Virus record (IMG/VR): IMGVR_UViG_3300031857_001206
Location: 1 to 25,947 of that record
DNA: 25,947 nt
Source: a virus
Direction: 5' to 3' (one strand)
The notes beneath the pieces were generated by a model that was not told the origin of the DNA, searched no databases, and saw nothing but the letters and a program-made list of their open reading frames with translations. Shown here piece by piece: positions 29 through 24,476 of this stretch; position 1 is the first letter of the stretch, and each line of letters begins with the position of its first letter. The translations under genes were made by a program, and so were the position numbers.

Positions 29-63
29 TGACCCCACCCCCCAGACTGCCGGTGGGGGGGTCA
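29..63 (-). terminator. GC-rich hairpin at the end of the HNH gene (possible terminator)
   Basis: TGACCCC (29-35) and GGGGTCA (57-63) are perfect inverted repeats; inside them a C-run faces a G-run and would extend the stem after one mismatch. The right arm contains the HNH stop codon. On the minus strand the stem is followed by A-rich rather than T-rich sequence, so it is not a textbook intrinsic terminator. It may slow polymerase or protect the 3' end of the long left-hand transcript. Confidence 0.4.
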
Positions 64-363
64 TGGCTTGCCTCGGTTGCCTCGACTGGCGTTGCATGAC
101 CTGTGCGCACCCCGTAGCTCTGAGTTGATGTCACCTGGCACAACGTGATCGGCTTGCCAAGGGTCGTCAGGGTTGGAGCCTTTGCCACAGAGCCAGCAGA
201 GCAGGGTTGTCTCCCGTACTCGCTTCGCACGTGATGCGTAGTCACCTTGGTAGTGAGTTCGCTTCTTGTTCCGATTGTGGTTCCATGCCTGTTGGCATTG
301 GTCGCAGCGTTGGATGTTTGTTGTGAGTCGTCTGCACACTAGGCAGGGGCGTTGGATGGGCAT
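61..363 (-). CDS. Small HNH endonuclease with zinc-ribbon cysteines
   Basis: A 100-residue HNH nuclease. Three CxxC pairs are visible (C7/C10, C20/C23, C56/C59). The catalytic part has D72-H73 followed by L83, H87, C90 and N91 in the pattern DHVVPG...LRGAHRSCNASRG, typical of phage HNH enzymes that cut DNA with a single metal. The ATG at 363 lies 7 bases after the stop of the primase-polymerase, so it is the last gene of that transcript. It has no strong ribosome-binding site and is probably translated by coupling. Phage HNH genes often sit next to the terminase genes and assist packaging; the terminase could lie just beyond the left edge, but that is inference. A free-standing homing endonuclease is the alternative. 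Confidence 0.85.
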   Translation of the reverse strand: MPIQRPCLVCRRLTTNIQRCDQCQQAWNHNRNKKRTHYQGDYASRAKRVRETTLLCWLCGKGSNPDDPWQADHVVPGDINSELRGAHRSCNASRGNRGKP

Positions 364-370
364 GAGGTGG

Positions 371-2464
371 TTACCAGAGTTCTGATAGTGGGTCGATGTT
401 GTCAGGGTTTGGGTGGGCTTGGGTGGGGGTGGTTCCGAGGTGGTTCTGATTTTCTATGGTTTCGTCTTCGGGTACGGAACCGCGTGTACCTTTCAGGTAC
501 ACACGCTGGTTCCTTTGTACTTGTTGGGTTTCAGGAAGTGGTTCCGAAGTGGTTCCGAAGGTGGTTCCGAGTTGTGAGGTGGTTCCGAGTGGTTCCGTTT
601 TTTGGGTGTAGGTGGTTCCGAGTGGGTCTGGGCGGGGTTGTTTGCGACATTGGATGGCTCGTCCGATGGCTGATTTGTGGCCTAGTGAGATGCCTTGGTC
701 TTTGAGTTGGCGTTGCACTTCGTTGACTCCGATGTCGATGGGGAAGCCTAGTTCGTCTAGTCGGTGGGCGATGGCGATTTCTTTTTCTGTCCAACCTCGC
801 TGCTCTTTGGTGCGGAGTCGGATGGTGATGGTGTCATCGAAGTCTTCGACGATGAGGTTGACGGTTTCTGGTACCCAGCTGATGCGTGTGTGGGTGCGCT
901 TGAGGGTTAGACCGTCGTCTGATTTGTCAAGTCGGTACACGATGTCCACGTCATCGTTCTTGGCTGAGGAGCCTCGTTGGCCTTGTTTCTTGCCACCATC
1001 CTTACCAGCATGGTCTGTGCGTACACAAGCCACGTTGGCTCGTTTGAGGCTGAGTCCTGTGGTTCGTGCGAACTCACGGTAGGAGTCTGCTGAGTTCTCT
1101 TCACCATCTATGGCTCGTCCGGTGGTGTCTATCACTACGACCTCAGCCTTGGTGAGTTCTACAAGTTTCATGATGGCTGAGGCACCTTCGGTGGTGTTGA
1201 GTGGTGGGAGGTTGGGGATGAGTGCGTAGTGGAGGTGGGAGAGGTCGTCGTCTTCTGTGTAGCCGAATTGTTCTAGGCGTTCGTAGAGGTCTGATTCGAT
1301 CATTTCGTAATCCAAATAGAGACAATGGATGGGTGGTTGTGCTGGTTGTCCGAGGATGGGTTTGCCGGAGGCTAGTGCTGCAACGACGTTGAGTGTGAGC
1401 CATGACTTACCTGTCTTCGCTCCAGCAAACAATGCAGTCTGACGGCCTTTGGCGATGAGTGGTTTGGCTAACCATTCTTCGGTTGCGTGTTCGAGTGACC
1501 AGAATGTTTTCCAATCCACCAGCATTGACAGCATCTCGTCTGGTGTGGGGATTGGTGTGACTAGTTCGGGTTTGCCTTCAGAGGTGGCTAGGAAGGCTTG
1601 GGAGGCTTGTTTCCAGTCTCCTCCATGCTTTGAGGCTGCGTAGTAGCCGAAGCGGTTGTAACCTCCTTCTGGTAGCCAGGGGATGGATGAGGTGAAGACG
1701 ATGAGTGCGTCGTTGCCGTTGTGACCTATCGTTGCGCTGGTGCCGTCTCTTGGGTCTTTGCCTGGGCGAACCCAATGCTGTTCCCCATGTCTGTCTACTT
1801 TGGCGAGTGTCCAGCCGTCTGGGATGAGCAGTTCTTCCCACGTTGTCTTCGCACAGTATCGGGCTGAGGGGGTGTTGGGGTCTGTAAGGAAGTTGTCCGG
1901 TTGACCTTTGGGTTTGACCATCTCAGGTTGTTTGGTGAGCAGTTTGACGAGCCAGTCTGGGGCTTTGGCTGGTCGTCGTTCGTGTGGGCTGAGGCCGTGT
2001 TCCCATTGGTAGCTGCGCCCGTTGGGGTGGATGGTTGGGGCTGCGAGGACTTGGCCTCCGGTACCTCTGATGTCGAGTCCTACGCCTAGGCGTGAGCCTG
2101 CGTCGTTGCGTATGTCTTCGTCACAGTAGAAGTACAGGTGTTGTCCACCTGTGCCGGTGATCGCTGTGACTGTCTCTGGTAGTTGACCATACTTTTCTTG
2201 CAGGTCGTGCAGGGTGTCTGAACCTTTGTATTCTTCACGGTCATCCACGTCAAGTACAAAGATGCGTCCGTGTTTGGTTTGACCTGTAGCGATACCGATC
2301 CCATAACCTGAGTATTGGCTAGTCCACCAGTCGTTCACGACGTGAATGTCATTGCTGGCTTTGTCTTGCCATTGAGACATTGGTGGACGCTTCTCACCAG
2401 GCTTGATCGGGATAACTCTGATACCAAGCTCAGCGAGTTTGATTGCTTCTTCACGCATTGTCAC
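371..2464 (-). CDS. Bifunctional primase-polymerase fused to RepA-like ATPase/helicase
   Basis: A 697-residue replication protein. Residues 5-160 form a prim-pol (archaeo-eukaryotic primase) domain: metal-binding DVDD at 72-75, the GGQH motif with H109, and LDIRGTGGQVLAAPTIHPNG at 130-149. Residues about 310-540 form a RecA-fold ATPase: Walker A GAKTGKS at 348-354, Walker B VVVID at 442-446, and a TDHAGKD segment near 483. Together they would prime DNA and unwind or load at the fork. The last 90 residues are low complexity with repeated LGTT units, encoded by GGTTCCGA DNA repeats. The GTG at 2464 overlaps the previous TGA (GTGA) and has GGAG 8 bases upstream, so it is preferred over the ATG at 2458. 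No DNA polymerase gene lies in the window; this is the main replication protein seen. Confidence 0.92.
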   Translation of the reverse strand: MTMREEAIKLAELGIRVIPIKPGEKRPPMSQWQDKASNDIHVVNDWWTSQYSGYGIGIATGQTKHGRIFVLDVDDREEYKGSDTLHDLQEKYGQLPETVTAITGTGGQHLYFYCDEDIRNDAGSRLGVGLDIRGTGGQVLAAPTIHPNGRSYQWEHGLSPHERRPAKAPDWLVKLLTKQPEMVKPKGQPDNFLTDPNTPSARYCAKTTWEELLIPDGWTLAKVDRHGEQHWVRPGKDPRDGTSATIGHNGNDALIVFTSSIPWLPEGGYNRFGYYAASKHGGDWKQASQAFLATSEGKPELVTPIPTPDEMLSMLVDWKTFWSLEHATEEWLAKPLIAKGRQTALFAGAKTGKSWLTLNVVAALASGKPILGQPAQPPIHCLYLDYEMIESDLYERLEQFGYTEDDDLSHLHYALIPNLPPLNTTEGASAIMKLVELTKAEVVVIDTTGRAIDGEENSADSYREFARTTGLSLKRANVACVRTDHAGKDGGKKQGQRGSSAKNDDVDIVYRLDKSDDGLTLKRTHTRISWVPETVNLIVEDFDDTITIRLRTKEQRGWTEKEIAIAHRLDELGFPIDIGVNEVQRQLKDQGISLGHKSAIGRAIQCRKQPRPDPLGTTYTQKTEPLGTTSQLGTTFGTTSEPLPETQQVQRNQRVYLKGTRGSVPEDETIENQNHLGTTPTQAHPNPDNIDPLSELW
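431..621. repeat. GGTTCCGA direct repeats inside the primase gene (iteron-like, possible origin)
   Basis: Exact GGTTCCGA copies begin at 431, 540, 551, 563, 581 and 614, with near copies at 442 (GGTTCTGA) and 591 (GGTTCCGT). Starts in the dense cluster are 11, 12, 18, 10 and 23 bases apart, several close to one helical turn. The repeats encode LGTT-type units in the disordered C-terminus of the primase-polymerase. Replication initiators such as lambda O carry their own iterons inside the gene, so an origin is a reasonable inference. Simple expansion of a coding repeat is the alternative. Confidence 0.5.
484..502. repeat. Perfect inverted repeat GTGTACC/GGTACAC beside the iterons
   Basis: GTGTACC (484-490) and GGTACAC (496-502) are exact reverse complements separated by TTTCA. 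The pairing can continue to GCG/CGC with a two-base bulge. It lies in the gap between the isolated iteron at 431 and the dense cluster at 540-621, inside coding sequence. A protein-binding palindrome or an extruded origin hairpin are possibilities; no function is demonstrated. Confidence 0.45.
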
Positions 2465-5350: not shown

Positions 5351-5772
5351 GATGCTTTCTCCTCTATGTGGAATTGATTGGTTTCTGGGATATAGATCAG
5401 GTTCAGCAAGTCCCGTGCGATGCCGTGACAAGCGTTAGCGAAACGCTGTGCTTGTTTCACGTCAAGGTTGGCAAGTGCTTCACCTGGTTTGGTGTATTTC
5501 TGCATGGTGATTTGGGAACATATGTCCTTCACCAAGTCTTCATCGAATTGGCCTGAGTCAAACAACAGGAATAGTCCTCTTGCTATCTCAAACCTTCGAA
5601 GAGATTTTGTTTCTTTAAGGCTGATGCTGCGACCAGCAAGTTCGGCTTGCGTGATAAGCATCGCCATTCTTGCCCTGTCAGCACCTTGAATGCCGTTTAA
5701 GCGTTCACGAATGTAGGTGACCGCTTGGTCATCGCCTGGCTGGTCTAGGTCACGACCCTCAATGGCGTTCAT
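5347..5772 (-). CDS. Hypothetical helical protein between nuclease and SSB-like genes
   Basis: 141 residues, mostly helical and charged (DDQAVTYIRERLNGIQGADR, LKETKSLRRFEIARGLFLLF, LVKDICSQITMQKYTKPGEA). The ATG at 5772 overlaps the nuclease TGA and its TGA overlaps the SSB-like ATG, giving a tightly coupled three-gene operon. Such a protein could be a recombinase mediator or DNA-end accessory factor, but it shows no ATPase motif and no HTH that I can defend. The position is the only functional hint. Confidence 0.6.
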   Translation of the reverse strand: MNAIEGRDLDQPGDDQAVTYIRERLNGIQGADRARMAMLITQAELAGRSISLKETKSLRRFEIARGLFLLFDSGQFDEDLVKDICSQITMQKYTKPGEALANLDVKQAQRFANACHGIARDLLNLIYIPETNQFHIEEKAS

Positions 5773-6923
5773 TGGATGCTTCCAATCTCTGCCGTATCGA
5801 ATGCCTTAGACTTACGTTTGGCAGGCTTAGGTGCGGTTGGGTCAGCGTCAAAGAACGGGATGTCATGTTCAGCCTCAACAACCTGTAAAGCTGCAACCAG
5901 TTTGTCCAACTGTGCATTGTCACATTCAACGAGTTTTGGGCATCCTTCAGGCCATGTCACCTTCAGCATGTTTTGTGCTTTCGGGCTGAGGTTGCCGATC
6001 CGTGCCTTTACCCAACCTTGCCGGATGGTGAGTTCGTTTGAGGGTGCAGGAATGTCGTCCTGTGGTATCGGATTTACCACAGGCACGACATCTCCCTGCT
6101 TCTCGTCAGAGAACTTGTAAGGCTTAAACAGGTCTTTACGCTTACGCCAGTCACGGGTTGCGAACGACATCTTCGCTGCTTCCCATCCTGCTTCAAGGTC
6201 AACTGTGTAGAACTTGCACGTTGCTTCACCGGCTGGAAGATGGCAGATGATGCCTTCTTTCATGTCTAAGCCTTCTGGGAGTGGTGTGCGTTCGCCAGTT
6301 TTCCAGTCATAAATCCAGTCAGCGTGTGCGTACATGGCGAGCTGTACTGCGATTGAACCAAACGAGTACGACAAGTCGGTTCCAGTCTTCAAGTCAAAGA
6401 TGCAGATTTTGCCGTCACGGGTCGTGACGATTCGGTCTGCTGTACCTGCATACTCGTACTCATCATTGATGAGGAGTACTTCAATCCATTCTTTACGCAT
6501 ACCGAAGTCCCACGCTGCGATTGATGCAACATAGGTTTCAATATCGGCCTGTAATCCTTGAAGGATTTGTGGCTTCATACCAAGGTCTAACTGTTGGGTG
6601 ATTGAGTGAAGTGCTGTACCGAGGTTTGCTCGACTGTATGCGCCCGCTGCTTCAATCGCATCGTTTGCAATCTTGTTTAGTTTGCTTCGATCATCCAACG
6701 ATGTTGATGCTTGTGCAAGCAGATCCGCTCGTTGAACAATCCCTGTGATTGCCATGCGTGTTTTCCAATCAGCAAGTGATGATGAATCATCCAACACTTT
6801 TGCGATTGTTGTGACACGGGTGTAGCCACGTTCTTTGCCTGTGGCTGGGTCACTAATTTTGTAGCGACCCCAACGGTCTTTTGGTGCTTCCGCTAATAAA
6901 CTGAACTCGTCTGATGTACTCAT
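5769..6923 (-). CDS. PD-(D/E)XK exonuclease, RecB/Cas4-like
   Basis: 384 residues from the ATG at 6923, which has TAGGAGG 7 bases upstream; a frame extension to 6992 would cross the promoter. The nuclease motifs appear in order: H106 in GTALHS, D163 in YAGTADRI, D177-x-K179 in IFDLKTG, and Q194 in AVQLAMYAHADW, typical of RecB-family and Cas4-like phage exonucleases. The last 100 residues are a linker and tail with several KPAK-like basic patches. It probably resects DNA ends for recombination-dependent replication, with the downstream protein and the SSB-like protein handling the exposed strand. It is the first gene after the promoter at 6965-6992. Confidence 0.85.
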   Translation of the reverse strand: MSTSDEFSLLAEAPKDRWGRYKISDPATGKERGYTRVTTIAKVLDDSSSLADWKTRMAITGIVQRADLLAQASTSLDDRSKLNKIANDAIEAAGAYSRANLGTALHSITQQLDLGMKPQILQGLQADIETYVASIAAWDFGMRKEWIEVLLINDEYEYAGTADRIVTTRDGKICIFDLKTGTDLSYSFGSIAVQLAMYAHADWIYDWKTGERTPLPEGLDMKEGIICHLPAGEATCKFYTVDLEAGWEAAKMSFATRDWRKRKDLFKPYKFSDEKQGDVVPVVNPIPQDDIPAPSNELTIRQGWVKARIGNLSPKAQNMLKVTWPEGCPKLVECDNAQLDKLVAALQVVEAEHDIPFFDADPTAPKPAKRKSKAFDTAEIGSIQ

Positions 6924-6964
6924 TCGCAGGCCTCCTAAAGCTTGGGAATTATGGGTGTGAATTG

Positions 6965-6992
6965 ACCATAGCAGGTTGAATTGCTTTGTCAA
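6965..6992 (-). promoter_or_regulatory. Sigma70-type promoter for the nuclease/SSB operon
   Basis: On the minus strand TTGACA (plus positions 6987-6992), a 16-base spacer and TATGGT (6965-6970). The -35 box is a perfect consensus match and the -10 has four of six. It lies in the gap between the Holliday resolvase and the nuclease start at 6923, leaving room for a short leader with TAGGAGG. This implies that the operon is read by the host housekeeping RNA polymerase, likely early in infection. Confidence 0.75.
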
Positions 6993-7001
6993 GCATTACT
7001 T

Positions 7002-7370
7002 CTACGGGGCGGGTGTAACAGGGTTTTGAGTTGGTTGATCGAGCATCAGCATCAGTTCACCCCAAATCTTGGCTGGCATCACCGCATACCAATCATCAAC
7101 ATTCGTTGACCCTCTGCGTTTGATAATGACTGTGCCAGTCCACGCTTTAGCGTTCTCCATCTCCACTTCAAGTTCACGCAAATAGCCTGGAATATCAATC
7201 TTCTTCTCTGCTTTAACTTCGATGCAAACACCAGGCATTCCGTCTATGTCGCCTCTGTCGTCTTGCCATCCGGCACGACTGCGTTCAGCGTGAATCCAGC
7301 CAAGTTTGCGCAACCACTTTGCTACAGCAAGTTCAGCTGCGGAACCTTTACGCTTCTGCGGTGATGTCAC
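7002..7370 (-). CDS. Holliday junction resolvase-like nuclease (PD-(D/E)XK)
   Basis: 122 residues. The N-terminus KRKGSAAELAVAKWLRKLGW followed by GDIDGMPGVCIEVKAEKK gives the archaeal-Hjc type active site: E13, D43 (with D41 nearby), E51 and K53. Such enzymes resolve four-way junctions and branched replication intermediates before packaging. The GTG at 7370 lies inside the end of the WhiB gene (23-base overlap) but has an excellent TAGGAGG site 7 bases upstream, so the start is well supported. The promoter for the next operon lies just after its end. Confidence 0.8.
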   Translation of the reverse strand: MTSPQKRKGSAAELAVAKWLRKLGWIHAERSRAGWQDDRGDIDGMPGVCIEVKAEKKIDIPGYLRELEVEMENAKAWTGTVIIKRRGSTNVDDWYAVMPAKIWGELMLMLDQPTQNPVTPAP

Positions 7371-11779: not shown

Positions 11780-11943
11780 TAGTTGTTGTCCTTATTGGTA
11801 TATGCGCCGATGAAATGTAGAACGAGAGCTGCGATGGTTAGCCAGATCACGATCCGTTGCAACGTGCCAGACAAGGTAAGGATTGTGGTGACTGATGCTG
11901 CGATTGTCCATATCAACGCATGGAACTCACCCCAAAACTTCAT
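11779..11943 (-). CDS. 54-residue two-span membrane protein (second holin candidate)
   Basis: Reads MKFWGEFHALIWTIAASVTT and continues through two spans (about 9-24 and 31-48, IVIWLTIAALVLHFIGAY) to a polar KDNN end. The ATG at 11943 overlaps the stop of the mucin-like gene as TGATG, and its TAA overlaps the next ATG as TAATG, so it is firmly embedded in the lysis cassette. Two small membrane genes before an endolysin commonly make a holin/antiholin pair; which one makes the hole cannot be told. A membrane partner for the preceding secreted protein is another possibility. Confidence 0.65.
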   Translation of the reverse strand: MKFWGEFHALIWTIAASVTTILTLSGTLQRIVIWLTIAALVLHFIGAYTNKDNN

Positions 11944-13385
11944 CACCGAATCCTTCTTGCTGGTGCAGGGGCTACTGTCAAGAATACAGCACCAACAGCA
12001 ATCAGCGCACGACGAGTACCAACTGGCACAGTCGAGTTGAGTGGAACATAGTTGTCTGCGAAACCTTGGAAGATGTTGAGTGTTGATTCGAATGCTTCAC
12101 GCACTTCTTGAGGTGCTTCCTGTACGGCAGCAACTACCGCTTCCGCTTCGTCTGGGCTGAGTTCGGTTGGGGTGATTTGGGTGAAGAGCTGTTCGGCTTG
12201 GGCGGGGGTGATGTGGTTGAGTACGGCTGGGCTGGTGATGAGGAGGGTGGCTTGGCTGGTGTCTAGGTCTTTGGTGAGGACTTCATCCACGATGGCTTCT
12301 ATGGCCTCTGAGGACGCTTCTGAGAGGGCTTCTAGGGTGTCTAGCAGTTCTGTTTGGGTGAGCGGTTTTGGCTCGTCTGTGGGGGCTTGTAGCGTTGTGG
12401 TCACATCAGGTTCAGATGTGGTCACAGGAGGGACGGTTGATGTCGTTGTTGGTGGATTTGTTGAAGTTGTGCTGGTTGTTTGTAACGGAGGCGGGAGCGT
12501 TGTGGTGGGGACTGGTTCTGGCTCCGTTGTGGTGGTTGTCGTTGTTTCGAGAACAGTAGAGGTTGTTGCCGGTGGCACATAAACCGTCGTCGTCGTGGTT
12601 GTTACCGTTGGAACATAAACTGTCGTGGTTGTTGTTGGGGCTACAGTCGTTGAAGTACTTGTCGTCGTCGAGCTAGTTGAGGTAACCGTTGAAATACTTT
12701 GTTGGAGCGTTGTTGTTGTTTGTGGTGGTGCCGTTGTGGTTGTTGGGACGGACGTTTGAGGAAGACTCGAAGTCGTAGAAGTTGTTTCTTGAACTGTCGT
12801 AGTAGTCGGGTTGGTGACAGGGACAGTCGTTGACGGGACAGTAGAAGTAGAGGTCGTCGTAATTGTTGTGGATGAGATTGTAGATACCCATTCACCCAAG
12901 CCTAATGTCAGCCCTGTAATCGTGAGGTTGCCTGGTTGGCAGCATGAGTCAGTCGAGTACTGCTGGAATGCGAAGATGTCGCCAGCCTGAACCTGAATCA
13001 GTTCTGATCCGGTGGCATTGTTCTCATTCGTCAGCTTGGTGATGACCCCGTTGAGAATGATTTGTGGAGGGTCATACCAAGACCCATCATTGGTTTGATA
13101 CGCCCATTGGAAACCGAGTTCGTTTGTCTCCTCTGGGATGATGGCCTGCATCCGAACATAATGAGACTTCCCAGCACACGTCCCACCATCAGCACCCGTG
13201 AGTTTGAACCCACCCTCAACCGGCTCAACCGTCCCACCCTGTTCAGCGAGGCAAGACTTAGAGAACTCCCAAACCCCAAACGTGTCAGCCTCAGCCGATG
13301 ATGATGTGACTAGGAAACCGAAGAACGCTGGGAAGAAAACTAGATAGCGGGAAACTCGACCCAAGCCTGATTTGCTTCGTCCCAC
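11943..13385 (-). CDS. Secreted mucin-like Thr-rich surface protein
   Basis: 480 residues. A signal peptide covers about 1-34 (LVFFPAFFGFLVTSSSAEA). Residues 35-165 look like a beta-sandwich, possibly carbohydrate binding, with C45/C70 and the pair C148-C149. Residues 168-335 are a Thr/Ser/Pro/Val spacer, likely extended and open to O-glycosylation. Residues 340-450 are helical and acidic, and 453-480 form a hydrophobic, basic tail (TRRALIAVGAVFLTVAP). The last 50 residues recall the ends of surface proteins in aquatic Actinobacteria, from memory only. The GTG at 13385 is the least certain point; it overlaps the previous gene by 46 bases and has only GGGAAAG upstream. Tip adhesin or exported host-surface coat are both possible. 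Confidence 0.72.
   Translation of the reverse strand: MGRSKSGLGRVSRYLVFFPAFFGFLVTSSSAEADTFGVWEFSKSCLAEQGGTVEPVEGGFKLTGADGGTCAGKSHYVRMQAIIPEETNELGFQWAYQTNDGSWYDPPQIILNGVITKLTNENNATGSELIQVQAGDIFAFQQYSTDSCCQPGNLTITGLTLGLGEWVSTISSTTITTTSTSTVPSTTVPVTNPTTTTVQETTSTTSSLPQTSVPTTTTAPPQTTTTLQQSISTVTSTSSTTTSTSTTVAPTTTTTVYVPTVTTTTTTVYVPPATTSTVLETTTTTTTEPEPVPTTTLPPPLQTTSTTSTNPPTTTSTVPPVTTSEPDVTTTLQAPTDEPKPLTQTELLDTLEALSEASSEAIEAIVDEVLTKDLDTSQATLLITSPAVLNHITPAQAEQLFTQITPTELSPDEAEAVVAAVQEAPQEVREAFESTLNIFQGFADNYVPLNSTVPVGTRRALIAVGAVFLTVAPAPARRIR
12381..12884. repeat. Low-complexity Thr-codon tract
   Basis: About 500 bases encoding residues 168-335 of the mucin-like protein. The coding strand is dominated by ACN and TCN codons broken by short CCA/GTT units, without an exact tandem period; the element TTTTTVYVP recurs twice (around residues 252 and 263). 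The plus strand shows long open frames here, but they are a composition artefact. Such tracts change length by slippage. Confidence 0.7.
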
Positions 13386-22522: not shown

Positions 22523-23178
22523 CCGAGTTCCCTTCGTCGTGTTAAGTCCCAATGTCCGGCATCAGGTAAACCTGATTGCCAGCGCATGGCATGAAGCGCA
22601 GCGTTGGATGCGAAGCTCTTAGCGTTGCGTTCGTTTAGTTCTGGTGCAGAGTTAATCGTAGAAGAGTTATCGTGAACTATCCCAGCATCCGAAGACCAGA
22701 ACTGTATGTTGACCCGTTTGGCACGTTCCTCAAAATCGTTGTCCTCGAAGTAGGCGGGAACATAACATTCCGAAAACAACCCAACCTTGGCAATCACCTC
22801 AGACCCGATCCATGCACAACACCAACCAGGCTTCGCCTCAGTCAATGTCACCGAATCAGGTTTGCAATCGTTGTAGAAAACTTTCAACTGTCCAGGCTCA
22901 AAGTACGCATCAGAGTTCAGTAGTATCCAGCCGTCAGCATGAGGCGTTGCTTTGATTCCGAGGTTCCATGATGGGGCGACACCGAGGTTCGTTGGCATTG
23001 ACCAGACGTGATAGTTCTTGACATGGCGACGGTCAATCACCCAAGGCCAATCATGCAACGTGGACTGCCCACCATTGTCAATGACGATGAGTGTCTCCAC
23101 CGGATAGTCGATGGATTGTAGGCAGCGTTCTAGTAGGTCGTACCTGTTTAGGACGGGGACGATGATTACAGGAACCAT
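22513..23178 (-). CDS. Glycosyltransferase family 2-like (GT-A fold)
   Basis: 221 residues. The start VPVIIVPVLNRYDLLERCLQ and TLIVIDNGG give the nucleotide-sugar site, NLGVAPSWNLGIKATPHADG and ILLNSDAYF supply the DxD-like metal site as NSDAYF, and YFEDNDFEERAKR holds the ED acceptor/base region of GT2 enzymes. It would transfer a sugar from a nucleotide donor. The ATG at 23178 overlaps the previous TGA (TGATG) with AGGAGG 6 bases upstream. Phage glycosyltransferases here probably decorate capsid or tail. Confidence 0.87.
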   Translation of the reverse strand: MVPVIIVPVLNRYDLLERCLQSIDYPVETLIVIDNGGQSTLHDWPWVIDRRHVKNYHVWSMPTNLGVAPSWNLGIKATPHADGWILLNSDAYFEPGQLKVFYNDCKPDSVTLTEAKPGWCCAWIGSEVIAKVGLFSECYVPAYFEDNDFEERAKRVNIQFWSSDAGIVHDNSSTINSAPELNERNAKSFASNAALHAMRWQSGLPDAGHWDLTRRRELGWD

Positions 23179-24476
23179 CAGCCCTCCTGACACCACTCAG
23201 TCAGTTCCTTCATGATTGGCTTCCAGTAAGCCTCATACACGCTGTCAGCACGGTATTGGCTAGCAAACGCCACAGCCTCCTCTGAGACACCACGTGGGGC
23301 TTCGTAGGCATCAATCAAAGCCTCCACGATGGATGGCACCTGTGGAGTACAAAACCAAGACTTCTGATGCGCATCCCAGAACGGTTGGATCGCTACAGCT
23401 GACCCAACACCAACCAGTTCAGGTTGAGCCGTGTAGTCCGAAACGATGACCCGTGTACCGCAAGCCTGAGCCTCGATAACAGGGATACCGAAACCCTCAC
23501 CCATTGAGCAAGCCAACAACACATCCGAAGCGGTGTACAGCGCAGCCAACGCTTGCTGAGGGAAACCAGTCCGATACGCATACGGGTCAACAATCTTGTA
23601 TTGCTCAGGCTTCACACCACACGCCTCCAGCAGATGCACAAGATTGATACCACCCATCGCACCATCACGCTCCGTGTGCAGATACAGCAAAGCATCAGGA
23701 CGGTCTTGAGCGAAGATAGCGAACGCCAGAATGTTCTCACCAAAAGATTTGCGTGAAGGGTTCTGACCTTTGTTCGCAGCGTTCATCATCACAACAAACC
23801 TGTCCTCATCAACTTCCATGAGCTGTCTGCCGGTGAACTCACCACGACCATTACTCAACTTGTGTGTAGGAACAAACACATCCTCAAACGCATGAGGCGC
23901 ATACAACGCATCAACACCCGCATTCTGCAACATCTCCAAACCGAACTTAGACATCGCAATCGGTTTCACATTCGGACGCTTACACCAATCAATCACAGCA
24001 GGCGGGCAAGGCGCATGATCAATCGGAACCCACGAAGCAATATTTGGAACCTGATCCAACGATGGTGACTTCAACACCCACACATCAAACAACGTCATCA
24101 ACATCGCAGGAATCTCACGATTGCCATTAGCCCAATCCATCCAATGCGCAACAAGCACATCATCGGAATATGGTGACATTCCTCTTGGGTAAAGCTTTAT
24201 GCCATTCCAAATAGAAGCCATGCCCTCAATGCCGTACATCGCATGGATTGCTACTTCGTGGTTTTTGGTGAGCCTTTGGACGACTTGCGCTGTTTGGGTG
24301 CCGTACCCTGTTGGGGCGAACGGGGCGTTTGAGTACCAGAGGATTCGTAACGATTCGGAAGTGGAAGGTCTGCTTGCTCTGGCAAGTGCGCTATTCCCCT
24401 TCGGAGCAATATCTCCGCTTCTAGGTCTGGTAACTCGACCGGAGTGTTCTTGACGATTACGAGCATTCTTTCCCAC
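23178..24476 (-). CDS. Glycosyltransferase family 4-like (GT-B fold), start overlapping a small gene
   Basis: 432 residues. LRILWYSNAPFAPTGYGTQT near residue 43 is the N-terminal donor/acceptor loop of phage GT4 enzymes; SMGEGFGIPVIEAQACGTRV at about 330 is the GT-B sugar-nucleotide motif (ExFGxPxxEAxACG). The only normal start before the conserved LRILWYSN is the GTG at 24476, with GGAGA 5 bases upstream, giving about 42 extra residues rich in R, S and P that look unlike an enzyme. The same bases encode a 71-residue protein in another frame. Either both frames are used, or the enzyme is made through frameshift or an unusual start. It heads the sugar-modification set. Confidence 0.85.
   Translation of the reverse strand: MGKNARNRQEHSGRVTRPRSGDIAPKGNSALARASRPSTSESLRILWYSNAPFAPTGYGTQTAQVVQRLTKNHEVAIHAMYGIEGMASIWNGIKLYPRGMSPYSDDVLVAHWMDWANGNREIPAMLMTLFDVWVLKSPSLDQVPNIASWVPIDHAPCPPAVIDWCKRPNVKPIAMSKFGLEMLQNAGVDALYAPHAFEDVFVPTHKLSNGRGEFTGRQLMEVDEDRFVVMMNAANKGQNPSRKSFGENILAFAIFAQDRPDALLYLHTERDGAMGGINLVHLLEACGVKPEQYKIVDPYAYRTGFPQQALAALYTASDVLLACSMGEGFGIPVIEAQACGTRVIVSDYTAQPELVGVGSAVAIQPFWDAHQKSWFCTPQVPSIVEALIDAYEAPRGVSEEAVAFASQYRADSVYEAYWKPIMKELTEWCQEG
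24251..24466 (-). CDS. Small head-region protein nested in the glycosyltransferase gene
   Basis: 71 residues starting MLVIVKNTPVELPDLEAEIL LRRGIA when read on; the opening resembles the short proteins that phages encode next to the major capsid gene. Residues 36-71 are polar and basic (SSGTQTPRSPQQ, KQRKSSKGSPKTTK) where the overlapping glycosyltransferase is most conserved. The ATG at 24466 has GGTGGG upstream. The conserved half of this gene lies over the non-conserved start of the enzyme, and its loose half over the enzyme's conserved part, as expected when two genes share DNA. It could instead be the 5' part of a frameshifted fusion. Confidence 0.6.
   Translation of the reverse strand: MLVIVKNTPVELPDLEAEILLRRGIAHLPEQADLPLPNRYESSGTQTPRSPQQGTAPKQRKSSKGSPKTTK

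Follow-up and report, generated by a model that had tools for sequence, protein, structure and literature searches.

A candidate replication origin of iterons and a hairpin inside the 3' end of a phage primase-polymerase gene

Origins within and behind initiator genes

In phage lambda, iterons are found inside the coding sequence of the initiator gene O. This origin lies mid-O and includes an AT-rich melting region; the system has no PrimPol, the host helicase being loaded by P. The oriV of RSF1010 associates 20-bp iterons, not located in a gene, with small priming hairpins on both strands (ssiA and ssiB); it relies on three separate proteins (RepA, RepB' and RepC), with an AEP primase and a RecA-fold RepA, and GTG was proposed as start motif for ssiA. 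The region 3' of pri-rep is a functional ori in phage-inducible islands (PMC6092414). In this PICI/SaPI type, iterons at the 3' end of a primase/Rep gene form two sets around an AT-rich core, Rep is of the SF3 type and, in PICI, the element drives E. coli plasmid replication (PMC6092414). Replication of plasmid pRN1 depends on a stem-loop that lies 3' of primpol, and a similar stem-loop origin was predicted in phage BIP-1 (PMC4234260). The proteins of this type (ORF904 in pRN1) join PrimPol, a helicase and a C-terminal winged helix, and the stem-loop structure is kept while its sequence drifts. In pRN1 the helicase is of the SF3 type and the stem-loop is about 100 nt long, non-coding and devoid of iterons; GTG was reported as start motif of ORF904 (PMC4234260).

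The locus considered here belongs to a window of 25,947 nucleotides (the whole stretch of DNA analysed), whose main genes are on the minus strand. The first complete large gene of this linear contig displayed Prim-Pol (PF09250, 4.5e-40, residues 7-171) and AAA_25 domains (PF13481, 1.1e-21, residues 326-490), and its product matched the PHROG categories DNA primase and DNA polymerase/primase. This agreed with the earlier note, which had located an iteron-like array in the 3' end of a primase-polymerase gene; the array occupies the final 250 nt of that gene. The following features were delimited:

371-2464, minus strand: replication protein of 697 aa with Prim-Pol, AAA_25 (RecA-fold) and a C-terminal HTH (Pfam for the first two)
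644-787, minus strand: C-terminal three-helix HTH domain, candidate iteron reader (residues 560-607, AlphaFold)
374-631, minus strand: protein tail encoded by the array, predicted to be disordered (residues 612-697, pLDDT about 25)
374-397, minus strand: C-terminal tip (SELW), acidic and with an aromatic last residue, retained by all clades
540-619, unstranded: main iteron block, GGTTCC at 540, 551, 563, 581, 591 and 614, all on the plus strand and most as GTGGTTCCGA
476-513, unstranded: hairpin of 38 nt, its ends being an inverted iteron GGAACC (476-481) and an iteron GGTTCC (508-513)
431-448, unstranded: distal iterons beyond the hairpin, GGTTCCGA (431) and its near copy GGTTCTGA (441)

As judged from sequence, region 431-621 is very probably the replication origin of this phage, located within the phage's initiator gene, at the 3' end. 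Both components of origins at initiator-gene 3' ends were present, namely repeats with a stem-loop and a replication initiator, primase or helicase gene. The comparison with lambda O made in the earlier note was fair as regards an origin inside an initiator gene, but the 3'-end origins of pRN1 and phage-inducible islands are closer cases. The locus differs from each described type. Unlike PICI/SaPI, it displayed neither a pair of iteron sets around AT-rich DNA nor any AT-rich melting region in the array, which is G/T-rich with a hairpin core; the central position is taken by a bulged hairpin, the ATPase has a RecA fold and the array lies within coding sequence (an AT-rich version was encountered in E. 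coli-type prophages, see below). Unlike pRN1, the ATPase is AAA_25 and not SF3, and the hairpin has 38 nt and is coding. Unlike RSF1010, there is one fused protein and a single conserved hairpin. The place 3' of primase or Rep genes was already known for origins; here, iterons are combined with a hairpin, are located in coding DNA and accompany RecA-fold ATPases.

Conservation of the array and its hairpin among relatives

In the window, GGTTCC occurred eight times on the plus strand (at 431, at 508 and at the six positions of the main block) and GGAACC once, inverted, at 476-481, over a span of 431-619. The spacings read on the gene strand were 23, 10, 18, 12, 11, 32, 32 and 45. The six exact copies of GGTTCCGA announced by the earlier note were recovered on the plus strand at 431, 540, 551, 563, 581 and 614, but the real array is larger than was said there, with eight GGTTCC and one inverted copy. 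A single stray GGTTCCGA was located on the minus strand, at 24023; shuffled windows were expected to hold 0.5 copies, and none of 100 shuffles reached at least seven.

Sixty related phages were gathered from IMG/VR (63-98 % identity). Over the final 330 nt of the gene, GGAACC reached a density of 14.2 per kb; in the body it was 0.14, approximately 100-fold lower. In each of the nine long relatives, the densest GGAACC cluster was the array; those with full arrays displayed eight to ten copies per 300 nt against two to three in the next best cluster, while clades with short arrays were marginal (three against two).

A low-complexity protein repeat (LGTT) devoid of DNA function could be proposed, as the array region does encode a disordered tail. 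However, the copies in the tails of the relatives fell in all three reading frames (100/62/59), those of the window being translated as LGTT, TEP/SEP and RNQ/QNH, and the inverse copy as GSV. GGAACC or GGTTCC encoded 80 % of GT, 63 % of EP, 42 % of N[HPQRL] and 47 % of VP dipeptides in the tail, against 11, 0, 2 and 7 % in the gene body. Reading in three frames as different amino acids indicates that DNA, not protein, was conserved. The relatives kept the DNA repeat while amino acids varied, so that the suggestion that LGTT is a by-product of a DNA constraint held: LGTT is one of three frames, and the codon test agreed. As hairpin covariation and the intergenic copies of other phages (see below) also contradict it, a protein repeat was rejected as the cause, its probability being negligible.

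The protein tail was nevertheless marked as translated by its tip, which was kept in all clades (ESELW, PDELW, EEDIW, DPLW or NNY, with W697 invariant in A1). Tolerance of the array by the protein would be explained by the tail being a disordered linker to this acidic, aromatic-ended tip. The tip recalls the tails of SSB and T7 gp4 and is a possible partner-binding peptide.

The earlier note had reported a 7-bp palindrome (484-502) alongside the repeats. The palindrome exists but is an integral part of the array, forming the core of the 38-nt hairpin GGAACC(CGCGTGTACCTTTCAGGTACACACGCT)GGTTCC. Hairpin size was 37-38 nt in every clade despite changed arms (GGAACCAGCGTGTGTACC.. in the window, GGAACCACCCCACCCCCC.. 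in L041, GGAACTGGTGTGCGTTTA.. in L052 and GGGACACCACACC.. in L053). Steps of 32 nt led, in most clades, from the last upstream iteron to the left arm and from there to the right arm (31-33 in a few). When right arms were swapped between clades, mean folding energy was -5.7 kcal/mol in the chimeras vs -12.5 in the cognates, and none of 200,000 permutations was as good as the cognate pairing. As folding was lost in chimeras and kept in cognates, hairpin arms co-vary among relatives. L025 and L028 retained one iteron each; L053 displayed no GGAACC iterons but kept the hairpin (L053:5679-5968), both outer arms having changed jointly (GGGACACC/GGTGTCCC). Conservation at the DNA level of direct GTGGTTCC iterons, followed at fixed 32-nt steps by a hairpin of two opposed iterons, is thereby shown in these sequences.

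The window hairpin carries unpaired bases on its gene-strand 5' arm. This was the case for 11 of 13 hairpins of the family and 14 of 18 hairpins of other phages; the remaining ones displayed a 3' arm bulge (one) or equal arms (five), so that 25 of 26 uneven hairpins were bulged on the 5' arm, a count in which borders of distant hairpins were set by the analyst and some phages are mutually related. Bulges located nearly always on one arm set one strand apart from the other, in agreement with a single-stranded hairpin signal.

GGAACC arrays in unrelated phages

IMG/VR was also searched with the GGAACC array pattern alone, i.e. blind to proteins; the matches included tandem protein repeats as well. 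Dense two-way GGAACC/GGTTCC clusters were found in many unrelated phages. A RecA-fold replicative ATPase gene ended within 400 nt of 26 out of 33 mixed-orientation arrays, while none of ten arrays of the reversed motif CCAAGG, used as control, was near such a gene. The ATPase HMM was partly trained on array neighbours and its 33/34 is therefore not independent; Pfam scans and the reversed-motif control were the fairer evidence. According to Pfam, most of these genes encode AAA_25, either fused to Prim-Pol (L157, L197, L212, L213, L221, L225 and L230), fused to Toprim (L142 and L150) or alone (L173, L176, L196 and L204), while DnaB-type domains were encountered at the arrays of L122, L153, L177, L215 and L222. 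Array copies were also present in genomes of Prauserella, Nocardioides and Micrococcus. L263, L326, L340, L342, L370, L401 and others were set aside as plain tandem protein repeats; GGAACC arrays of L119, L163, L208 and L209 were left without assigned explanation.

Arrays of unrelated phages were mostly intergenic, just past the stop codon, and were within the gene in L157, L212, L217 and L230; direct iterons occurred in either orientation relative to the gene. Intergenic arrays of either orientation argue for an element read as double-stranded DNA. An RNA element of the mRNA (a regulatory hairpin or translational control) would account for one strand being special, as suggested by the 5'-arm bulges, but a single-stranded RNA reader would not tolerate both iteron orientations and no T-run follows the window hairpin, which makes this explanation extremely improbable. 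No known RNA family was matched in Rfam, and a tRNA search returned none.

A second class of initiators was represented by the PrimPol/VapE of E. coli-type prophages, with GGAACC iterons and a ATATATATATA tract at the 3' end of the gene. In PrimPol/VapE genes of E. coli-type prophages and a Yersinia phage (L234:8337-8524, L405:9400-9700 and L406:4447-4780), iterons flank an AT-rich tract, and it is the iteron sequence that differed between relatives. L234-like DNA was detected in 101 out of 5426 complete E. coli genomes. Other repeats occupied the same place in the relatives of this class that were encountered in further E. coli genomes and in Yersinia phage YeP4. Streptomyces phage mu1/6 (DQ372923) resembled the window in that the 3' end of its AAA_25-related helicase gene (gp21) harbors an array read in three frames plus a hairpin, and differed in the iteron, ACCTGCCC. 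This array (L231:3931-4124), which is unannotated as origin in record DQ372923, is by its sequence a candidate origin of a cultured phage. A constant place with a changeable iteron sequence is as expected of a pair of initiator and origin. The repeat search detected no GGAACC array at the PrimPol loci of Arthrobacter phage Eileen and Rhodococcus phage Shagrat, and a family-alignment scan for more distant PrimPols recovered the same family only.

Taken together, DNA-level conservation, hairpin covariation and recurrence at replicative ATPase genes support the interpretation as an origin. Evenly balanced, in our estimate, is the broader proposal that GTGGTTCC iterons and a one-arm-bulged hairpin form a widespread, previously unnamed origin module, located in many phage lineages at the 3' ends of helicase genes with a RecA fold (with or without PrimPol, Toprim or DnaB-N fusion); the hairpin, being asymmetric, would signal priming or loading in a strand-specific manner. 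No description of such a module was found in the open-access literature. Apart from a few models, phages seldom have a known origin; if the proposal is correct, a sequence signature would allow origins to be located in many phages and prophages that are uncultured, would predict the protein that reads it and would provide a clean example of DNA that obeys two codes at once. Among the relatives with cultured hosts are the Streptomyces phage and prophages of E. coli, Prauserella, Nocardioides and Micrococcus.

Genome end and proposed initiation

Two features separate the array from the end of the contig or mark that end:

1-28, unstranded: contig end, probable packaging end (cos), at which relatives end or read through into terminase genes
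61-363, minus strand: gene for a small HNH endonuclease, separating the array from the genome end (PHROG 338, 1.6e-6; PHROG 144, 5.6e-5)

The window, L005, L008, L013 and L057 all terminate at one homologous base, which is situated 365-371 nt past the gene stop. The shared ends read ..CAACTAC or ..GACTAC, while read-through relatives continue with CCATGCCGTGCGC and reach TerS-like, TerL and portal-type genes, names that were given from sequence and gene order and not from a family search. Shared ends and read-through into terminase-type genes point to a packaging end about 0.6 kb from the array. The stretch from the HNH stop to the genome end contains a C/G-rich inverted repeat (TGACCCCACCCCCC..GGTGGGGGGGTCA, 29-63), which is kept in relatives and is a candidate terminator or cos element.

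The main confounder of the origin was a packaging signal, the array being part of a terminase binding region near cos. Besides the shared ends, the HNH gene adjoining the contig end, as is common at cos, and the GC skew speak for it. The earlier note had proposed to look for a cumulative GC-skew minimum at the array; a minimum was indeed near the array in all nine long relatives (0.5-0.84 kb), but it coincided mostly with cos, not with the array itself. All genes run one way. Being at the genome end, the skew minimum supports the neighbourhood and does not separate origin from cos. Against a packaging signal, 430-620 nt and a gene separate the array from the end, and the same element follows replicative ATPase genes in unrelated phages. 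No terminase was recognized by Pfam among flanking proteins of L213, L221, L142, L222 and L157, and L225 displayed a weak terminase-like match, i.e. one such neighbour among ten flanking proteins at six loci. The association with ATPase genes and the lack of terminase neighbours in most cases tested favour an origin over cos, and leave the packaging signal unlikely.

Somewhat less probable still was a parS-like partition site or a repressor-binding array of a plasmid-like prophage. It has a precedent in some mycobacteriophages, where an additional parS is formed by direct repeats immediately downstream of repA (PMC7157519). Nevertheless, nine relatives, of which several appear to be complete, yielded neither ParA-type ATPases (PF13614) nor tyrosine integrases nor large serine recombinases, while control genomes did match in the ParA search; a co-varying hairpin is moreover not expected of parS.

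For the origin reading, initiation could proceed as follows. The C-terminal HTH domain of the PrimPol-ATPase would bind the iterons soon after its own synthesis, i.e. in cis; the ATPase ring would then open the DNA at the hairpin; and the asymmetric hairpin, extruded or single-stranded, would offer the Prim-Pol domain a strand-specific priming place. The HTH of the PrimPol itself appears to be the likeliest iteron binder, rather than the separate 82-residue protein that the earlier note had also put forward. Its helices (residues 560-571, 580-589 and 597-607) were predicted with a pLDDT of about 80; a full-length model was weak (pLDDT 61, pTM 0.33). Structural matches to HTH/wHTH DNA-binding domains were weak (best Z 3.6), as were the HTH-like matches retrieved from PDB by sequence and by fold. 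Comparisons of this HTH with the wHTH of other initiators (hhalign probability 3 %) and with the mu1/6 gp21 C-terminus (BLASTP, E 3.8) were not significant. The iteron contains GTG, and sharing of this triplet with the start motif of pRN1 ORF904 and with the one proposed for RSF1010 ssiA may be taken as a hint only.

Elsewhere in the window, the replication region includes, upstream, PD-(D/E)XK/phage exonuclease and RusA-like resolvase genes (5769-7370). A 36-nt repeat is present in two copies (12561-12637) within a gene of 480 aa (11943-13385), and a glycosyltransferase group 1 gene (23178-24476) adjoins the capsid gene, an unusual place.
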